DNA from: Dehalococcoidia bacterium
GTDB taxonomy: Bacteria > Chloroflexota > Dehalococcoidia > Tepidiformales > Tepidiformaceae
Assembly (NCBI GenBank): GCA_020432045.1
Contig: JAGQHB010000047.1
Location: 1-39,141 of the forward strand
Direction: 5' to 3'
DNA length: 39,141 bases
Made by a program: the position numbers and the translations under genes. Under the pieces are notes generated by a model. That model was not told the DNA's origin, searched no databases, and saw only the letters and a program-made list of their open reading frames with translations. The stretch's first letter is position 1. Every line of letters begins with the position of its first letter. Of the stretch, positions 30,357-32,172 are shown piece after piece.

Positions 30357-31064
30357 GTGACTGATCCGTACGCCGTGCTAGGTCTGCCGCCAGACGCGCA
30401 CGAACCGGACGTAAACCGCGTGTTCCGGGCGCTGGCGCGTGACCTGCATCCGGAGCGCTACGTGGGGGCGCCGGAGGAGGAGCGAGCGGCGGCCGAGGAA
30501 CGTTTCAAAGAAGTCTCGGCCGCCTATTCGGCGATCAAGGAACGACGCGAGGAACGGCGCAGCTGGGGACCGCTGAAGCCCGAAAACAGCCTCGTGCTGG
30601 TCATGGTCGCGATGCTCCTCACGCTGGGACTGGTGCTCGCCGGGGTTATCAGCACGGCATTGACGCACATGGACCAGGCAGAGCCCGAAGTGCAGCTATC
30701 CGAAAACGCGCTCGCGACGATCAGCCTGATGCACGACGGCGTGCCCGTGCCGCACTCGGCAGTGCTGTCTGTCCGGCGCCTGGGCGATTATGTCGTACTC
30801 CAGCTTGATTCGAACGAAGTGTTGGCGCCGGGTGACCTGGCAGCTTCGTGTATCCACGACGGCGCGCACGCGTGGCGCAGCGACTCGATCCAGCAGATGT
30901 CAGCGTCGTACATCGTCCGGTACCAGGTGCCGCTGGACGCGGACCATGAAGTCGGTGTGCCCGGCGGGAGCAGCGCGGGTGGCGGAGAGACGCTTTCGTT
31001 CCTGTATGCCTGCGATGCCAATTACACGCCGGCGCCACTGGCTGCTGCGTTGTTCGCGCCGTAG
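30357..31064 (+). CDS. Membrane-anchored J-domain-like protein with HPE instead of HPD
   Basis: A 235-residue protein. Residues 3-68 form a J domain (DPYAVLGLPPDAHEPDVNRVFRALARDL, then HPERY, and the FKEVSAAYSAI helix). The invariant HPD tripeptide reads HPE (residues 31-33). In known J proteins the Asp is needed to stimulate DnaK ATPase, so activity may be changed or lost. A single TM helix lies at about residues 79-100, followed by a C-terminal domain with two cysteines (SCIHDGAH, YACDANY). GTG 30357 has -10 TAGGAT 7 nt upstream and no ribosome-binding site (leaderless). C-terminal function unknown. Confidence 0.72.
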   Translation: MTDPYAVLGLPPDAHEPDVNRVFRALARDLHPERYVGAPEEERAAAEERFKEVSAAYSAIKERREERRSWGPLKPENSLVLVMVAMLLTLGLVLAGVISTALTHMDQAEPEVQLSENALATISLMHDGVPVPHSAVLSVRRLGDYVVLQLDSNEVLAPGDLAASCIHDGAHAWRSDSIQQMSASYIVRYQVPLDADHEVGVPGGSSAGGGETLSFLYACDANYTPAPLAAALFAP

Positions 31065-31115: not shown

Positions 31116-31146
31116 TTGTTAAAGCTCCGGGGGGGGGGGGTAATGT
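31116..31146 (+). promoter_or_regulatory. Promoter with a 12-G tract in its spacer (possible phase-variable)
   Basis: TTGTTA (31116-31121) and TAATGT (31141-31146) flank a 19-nt spacer containing an uninterrupted run of 12 G (31129-31140). Gain or loss of G by slippage would move the spacing; 17 nt needs 10 G. It lies upstream of the secreted-protein gene at 31187, whose ribosome-binding site follows the predicted start. Confidence 0.6.
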
Positions 31147-31186
31147 GCTGTTGTCGGGCCCGAACCTTCTCAGGAGCTGCAAAGAT

Positions 31187-31627
31187 ATGAATCCGCGACG
31201 CCCCTCTCGGGGAACCAAGAACCCCGGTGTTCTTCGGCTGACCCAGAGCCTGATGGCGATTACCATCCTCGCGATGGTAGCCCTGGCACTCCCGTCCACG
31301 GCCTCAGCGTGGGCAGGGCAGACCTGTGTTGGGGGCAGCACCGGTAGCTACTACACCTATGGGTCAGTCACGACCTGCACTCCGCTTCCGGCAGGAACGA
31401 TTGCGACGACGGCCAGCCTTTACGGCTACTCCGAACACTCAGGAAGCTACGTATTCATCGCCTCGACGTTCAGCGCATGCGCGGGCTGCGGTTACGATGC
31501 GGCGTTCGCTGCGAATCCTTCTCCGGGTGGGAGCATGTACACCGCGGGCACGCACTTTGTCTGCATGCCGCCGCCGTTTTCTCCGTCCTGCAAGACCGCG
31601 TTTTCCGTGTGGTTCTTTAGCACCTAA
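31187..31627 (+). CDS. Small secreted cysteine-rich protein
   Basis: A 146-residue exported protein. A signal peptide (LTQSLMAITILAMVALALPSTASA, cleavage likely after TASA) is followed by a mature domain with six cysteines (QTC, TTC, SAC, AGC, FVC, PSC), several Tyr/Gly/Ser strands and no enzyme motif, suggesting a disulfide-stabilised small beta domain on the cell surface. ATG 31187 has AGGAG 10 nt upstream. It is the first gene after the poly-G promoter, with the second secreted gene 14 nt downstream. No family recognised. Confidence 0.68.
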   Translation: MNPRRPSRGTKNPGVLRLTQSLMAITILAMVALALPSTASAWAGQTCVGGSTGSYYTYGSVTTCTPLPAGTIATTASLYGYSEHSGSYVFIASTFSACAGCGYDAAFAANPSPGGSMYTAGTHFVCMPPPFSPSCKTAFSVWFFST

Positions 31628-31641
31628 CCAAGGAGGGAGTC

Positions 31642-32115
31642 ATGCATCGATCATTCAGATTCCCAAGCATGGGAATCAGCGTCATCGCAAGCGTTGTCGC
31701 TATCGGAGCGACGGCAGCAATACTCACAACAGCCATACCGGCTCTCGGCGGCGACGAGCCGACAGTGCGCTTCGCGGAGGCAAGGCCAGATGGCGCGCCG
31801 GATCCGCTAAGCCCGGAGCAATGCCGACAAGCCGAAGCCGCCCTCCTAAGCACCCGTGCCAATCTCTCGACAGCGATGGATCGGGCTCTGGATCCGGTAG
31901 CCGCGGCTAACGCGAAGTCGAGTCTGAACCAAGAGGTTGACAGGAGTCTGGCGTGGGTCGCGGCAGGATGTCCGCCGGATCCGATTCGGGGATTCATCCC
32001 GAATCCGACGGGCGAAGGCGGGTCGCTCCGCCTCATGGAACACCAGAACTTCTCGTCAGATGGCGTAATCGTCTGGGACGAACCCGGGGCGGCGAAGCCG
32101 GTTGGCCAGCCGTAG
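31642..32115 (+). CDS. Secreted protein of unknown function
   Basis: A 157-residue protein with an N-terminal hydrophobic segment (ISVIASVVAIGATAAILTTAIPALGG) that is a signal peptide or anchor. It then has a helical region with two cysteines (EQCRQAEAALLSTRANLSTAMDRAL and VAAGCPPDP) and a C-terminal extended tail. The ribosome-binding site AAGGAGGGAG is 4 nt before ATG 31642, which follows the previous gene by 14 nt, so the two form an operon under the poly-G promoter. Family not recognised. Confidence 0.65.
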   Translation: MHRSFRFPSMGISVIASVVAIGATAAILTTAIPALGGDEPTVRFAEARPDGAPDPLSPEQCRQAEAALLSTRANLSTAMDRALDPVAAANAKSSLNQEVDRSLAWVAAGCPPDPIRGFIPNPTGEGGSLRLMEHQNFSSDGVIVWDEPGAAKPVGQP

Positions 32116-32136: not shown

Positions 32137-32172
32137 ACCGGGGGGCGGTGCGATCGACGTACCGCCCCCGGT
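32137..32172 (+). terminator. GC-rich hairpin, possible factor-independent stop
   Basis: The 13-nt arm ACCGGGGGGCGGT (32137-32149) and the 12-nt arm ACCGCCCCCGGT (32161-32172) form a stem with an 11-nt loop and one bulge. There is no T-run, so it may pause RNA polymerase or protect the mRNA end rather than act as a classical terminator. Confidence 0.35.

Follow-up and report, generated by a model that had tools for sequence, protein, structure and literature searches.

The locus raises the question of whether a run of 12 G between two candidate promoter boxes could switch the genes behind it. The window, meaning the whole stretch of DNA analysed (39,141 nt), is one contig of the source genome G000, which comprises 3.48 Mb in 115 contigs, and the NuoL that it encodes is 68–80% identical to that of Chloroflexota Dehalococcoidia MAGs, which assigns the genome to this class. 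The G12 tract (31129..31140, + strand) is one of six G/C runs of at least 10 nt in the genome and the only one longer than 6 in the window, where the next longest is 6. Upstream of it a DnaJ-domain gene ends at 31064, and 46 nt downstream of it the A-B operon begins with the ATG of gene A at 31187; the gap between these two genes measures 122 nt. As the first-pass annotation had described, the 12 G stand exactly between the candidate −35 box TTGTTA (31116..31121, + strand) and the candidate −10 box TAATGT (31141..31146, + strand), inside a spacer of 19 nt.

Gene A (31187..31627, + strand) encodes a 146-aa secreted protein rich in Gly, Ser and Tyr, of no known family, with a signal peptide ending in STASA. 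Its start is the ATG at 31187, preceded by the ribosome binding site AGGAG (31172..31176, + strand), which replaces the GTG at 31145 of the longest open reading frame. Gene B (31642..32115, + strand) encodes a 157-aa exported or anchored protein, whose N-terminus is a hydrophobic export segment and which is weakly similar to the B proteins of loci C72 and C47 described below. As gene B begins only 14 nt downstream of gene A, with its own ribosome binding site AAGGAGGGAG (31630..31639, + strand), the two genes are taken to form an operon. A G + C-rich hairpin 3′ of gene B (32141..32169, + strand), with 12-nt arms, a 5-nt loop and no T run, is a possible transcript end. Both genes look real. Neither protein has a match in Pfam or NCBIfam, and each carries an N-terminal export signal or anchor, so that the earlier description of two exported, unrecognised proteins behind the tract was correct. 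A close search of the genome contigs gave no relatives of the window A protein, a search of solved structures gave no match, and for two A proteins the predicted structures reached pLDDT values of only 51 and 48, too poor for a fold search. Our guess is that the pair acts on the surroundings, by release or by attack, and that B is anchored.

The two boxes match the sigma-70 consensus at four of six (−35) and three of six (−10) positions, i.e., weakly, at 7 of 12 together, and the promoter consensus scan called none at this locus; therefore, the window boxes taken alone are no evidence. The search of 60 genomes found no DNA relatives of the locus, and there was no Rfam match in the region. The case for the putative window promoter is carried by the comparison with other loci.

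Genome-wide, 658 G/C runs of at least 6 nt were found, with 11 of at least 8 and six of at least 10, the latter against 0.04–0.18 expected by geometric extrapolation (P between 5e-8 and 4e-12). The four runs of exactly 8 all lie within ordinary coding sequence, while the single run of 9 is a C9 at C82 (L021), 5′ of an exported protein. All six runs of at least 10 are located 5′ of exported proteins and five of them at A-B pairs, for which the probability by chance is about 1e-10 or less. The claim that such tracts accompany exported proteins is thus supported: of the six long tracts, five stand before a similar pair, namely a small secreted A followed in tandem by an exported B (loci C30, C47, C72, C104 and C108, the last being that of the window). 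The sixth, at C66 (L005), is a C10 immediately 5′ of a lipoprotein start codon; this run and that of C82 are possible further switches.

The five A proteins are very diverged, with about 20–27% identity in an alignment of the window A with its four paralogs, and their common descent is no more than plausible. A profile of the five, built from these same sequences, gave significant matches in the genome only at the same five places. At least two sorts of B protein occur in the genome. The B proteins of C47 and C72 are homologs of each other (E 2e-8) and members of a wide family, marked by the motif DGxVTxxEY, that is present in related genera. At least one A-B pair, at C91 (L132), is without a tract, which counts against the switch reading and provides a useful control locus.

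The tracts of the five pairs differ in position. In three of them, C108, C72 and C30, a candidate promoter directly before gene A contains the tract: TTGTTA-19-TAATGT in the window, TTGACA-20-TACGGT (TTGACA-N9-G11-TACGGT) at C72 and TTGCCA-14-TAACGT at C30. At C47 and C104 the tract is separated from the pair by a small gene for a LuxR-type HTH protein (Pfam GerE). The C11 of C47 precedes the LuxR-type gene within the candidate promoter TTGCCC-18-TACCTT, and the C11 of C104 lies a few codons past the possible starts of its gene. There, reading from an ATG beside GGAGG keeps the HTH frame open with 10 or 13 C, and reading from a GTG a few bases further does so with 11 C; with either start, the tract length sets the frame. 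Switching would act through the promoter spacer at three loci and through the regulator gene at two, by way of its candidate promoter at C47 and of the frame set near its start codon at C104.

The same layout was found in other genera of the family. The equivalent of the −35 box is TTGACA at C72 of the source genome and in three other genera and TTGAAA in a fourth, while the −10 equivalents at related promoters are TAACGT, TACGGT or TATATT, directly after the tract or 2 nt on. TTGACA-TG-C15-G-CATAAA precedes an A-B pair (G022:C95), TTGACA-TTC-G11-A-CAGAAT a secreted protein (G021), and TTGACA-N8-G10-TAACGT (G005) and TTGAAA-N8-G11-TATATT (G018) small secreted proteins. A homopolymer between −35 and −10 boxes, as in phase-variable loci of the promoter-spacer type, is therefore present with weak boxes in the window and with strong ones in the homologous layouts. 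LuxR-type genes with tracts occur in G003 and G007 and at two places in G017. In G022:C80 a secreted protein has a C10 close to its start, the assembled length being out of frame from the likely ATG. By manual reading, about 19 of the 31 tracts of at least 10 nt in the family precede exported proteins or LuxR-type genes, G011, G012 and the two artefact-rich genomes G020 and G024 not being counted. Small secreted metzincin-type proteases are encoded at the tract loci of G018, G005 and G022, with HExxHxxGxxH in L046 and L057 and a related HExxH in L062, and the full motif is absent from gene A of the window; as only some of the secreted proteins are such proteases, the common theme of the tracts is secretion and not one enzyme. 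In other genera an adaptor-like protein often comes after the B gene (L108, L134, L136 and L147; MacA-like by eye, with only a sub-threshold Pfam biotin_lipoyl match in L108). In L108 an ABC ATPase comes after the adaptor-like protein, and an A gene stands before B.

In G011, three secreted paralogs (L065, L068 and L079) have tracts of C13, C14 and C17 that either immediately precede the start codon or coincide with it, behind a promoter resembling TTGACA-17-TACAAC; in a fourth copy, L248, tract and ATG are both absent there. The same genome has tracts near the frame start of paralogous membrane proteins that appear glycosyltransferase-like by eye, a G18 in L073 (1493–1510) and a G17 in L075 (1502–1518), for which translational phase variation is likely. 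No orthologs of the G011 tract genes were found in its genus.

The association with promoters was also analysed in 393 genomes of the class, using as control the same pattern reversed, so that the composition was unchanged. TTGACA-N2-12-G9 occurs in 36 genomes against 4 for the reversed pattern, and TTGACA with C9 in 17 against 2. A −10 hexamer (at least four of six matches, with A2 and T6) was present at 15–20 nt in 25 of the 50 sites read out, compared with a mean of 4.3 and a maximum of 12 in 2000 shuffles of the sequence downstream of the tract. The excess of upstream TTGACA and that of −10 hexamers over the shuffles argue that the tract sits in promoter spacers, with either base. Occupation of the spacer by both G and C runs points to independence from the base, as a length switch predicts, and the spacers found vary from 14 to 21 nt, which would fit a mixture of on and off states. 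The proposal that the tract is a promoter spacer is strengthened by these statistics and by the recurrence of the layout with near-consensus boxes in other genera, although the window −10 box is weak by itself.

Differences in tract length were observed among relatives. In five genomes of a single genus, a homolog of the secreted protein of G021 is preceded by the promoter TTGA-Cn-AATTTGTGGC-TAGCAT, with n = 9, 8, 8, 8 and 7; over the surrounding sequence of about 370 nt the only other difference is one small upstream indel in G032. In the duplicated LuxR locus of G017, C10 versus C11 is the sole gap in 723 nt at 94% identity. The three secreted paralogs of G011 likewise differ in length, with C13, C14 and C17. 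Several of the length-variable relatives have few contigs and may be long-read assemblies, in which homopolymer lengths are error-prone, and in G032 a frameshift interrupts the gene; some of the differences may be errors. The comparison with related genomes, which the first-pass annotation had named as a check, thus gave length differences at the promoters of relatives, but partly in apparent long-read assemblies and with no relatives of the window locus itself.

These data have to be weighed against explanations without a switch. The G-rich spacer could be a fixed promoter element of the class, acting through DNA shape or as a binding site. Five genomes from five families (L158, L162, L176, L171 and L164) share TTGACAG...-G9-TGATATA with always exactly 9 G, followed by a conserved leader (...TTTTGGA.AAACTAAAC...TTAC) that has no Rfam match, and a cluster of tRNA-Phe/Leu/Gln/Asn genes, for which phase variation would not be expected, has a G9 spacer in front of it. 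The G run at these exact-G9 sites looks fixed. However, the 17 genomes with C runs at the same place, against 2 in the control, do not fit such an element, and the tracts of the window's family are 10–15 nt long and differ between near-identical copies. Those in gene start regions (C104, G022:C80 and G011) would make no sense for a promoter element, and we regard a fixed element as unlikely for the window. The G9 sites and the switches may be different things, or the switches may have arisen from a G-rich spacer that was already an old feature of promoters in the class.

That the tract is a neutral intergenic homopolymer flanked by coincidental boxes would agree with the weakness of the window boxes and with the better tolerance of G/C runs outside genes, but is quite improbable in view of the excess over the run-length background, the location of five of the six runs at the same rare gene pair and the strong tendency of the runs to lie between −35 and −10 boxes. 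The tract could also be a sequencing or assembly artefact; the many poly-G runs of the relatives G020 and G024, a good part of them at contig ends, are probably products of two-colour chemistry. In contrast, the source genome has only six such runs, none less than 900 bases from a contig end; half of them are C on the strand of the gene, their flanks are intact and their places meaningful, which makes an artefact very hard to credit here.

Thus, we consider the G12 tract to be probably a slipped-strand (contingency) tract in the promoter spacer of the A-B operon and one of a set. This reading starts from direct observations: the tract, its excess over chance, the association with A-B pairs, the box-flanked position at many sites of homologous layout and the length differences in relatives. 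From these we infer slippage, an effect of length on transcription and reversibility. The optimal spacer for sigma-70 is 17 nt. Replication slippage would add or remove G in the tract; 10 G would give the optimal 17-nt spacer, and the 12 G of the assembly would give 19 nt and a weak promoter. A population would then hold cells with differing A-B output, and the window locus would be one of at least five in the genome that vary independently.

Phase variation of transcription through homopolymers that lie in promoter spacers is described for porA, fetA and opc of Neisseria (PMC5320596; PMC3960869), and the transcription of fetA and porA changes with spacer length (PMC5320596). As there, a G or C run lies between −35 and −10 boxes, its length alters their spacing, and the products are exported or surface proteins. 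Unlike Neisseria, the host of the window belongs to Chloroflexota and is apparently free-living, the products are small secreted proteins that belong to no known family and share an operon with an exported partner, the boxes are weaker, and the length effect is a predicted one. Translational contingency loci with poly-G/C are known from Campylobacter, Helicobacter and Neisseria. G022:C80, G000:C104 and the GT39-like genes of G011 resemble them, as a tract near the start codon sets the frame, whereas the window tract is not of the start-codon type. The gene pair also recalls loci of the lactococcin 972 type, in which a small secreted aromatic-rich protein is followed by an exported partner, as do the adaptor-like proteins after B in relatives, once with an ABC ATPase next. 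The A proteins differ in having no bacteriocin match in Pfam or NCBIfam, and neither an ABC transporter nor a membrane immunity gene lies beside the window pair. The label of a lactococcin 972-type bacteriocin for A was dropped, as no profile matched.

The literature search, which had partial coverage, found no account of phase variation by homopolymers in this phylum, Chloroflexota. The mechanism is already known, and the host group and the gene-pair family appear to be new; as far as the literature was searched, the novelty would lie in the use of the mechanism by Chloroflexota, and there in a set of several loci directed at pairs of small secreted proteins. More tentatively, we propose that free-living Dehalococcoidia may carry a phase-variable secretome, in which several A-B pairs, each with its own tract at a promoter spacer, a LuxR-type switch gene or a start codon, would provide a clone with many combinations of secreted, possibly antagonistic proteins.

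Slipped-strand contingency loci are known mainly from host-adapted bacteria and are there usually explained by immune evasion. If the proposal is true, a contingency set in uncultured Chloroflexota, aimed at small secreted proteins, would point to other drivers, such as phage, predators or competitors, and the tracts would be a handle on proteins of unknown function. The results suggest that secreted proteins of these free-living bacteria are switched on and off at random by slippage, like those of some pathogens.
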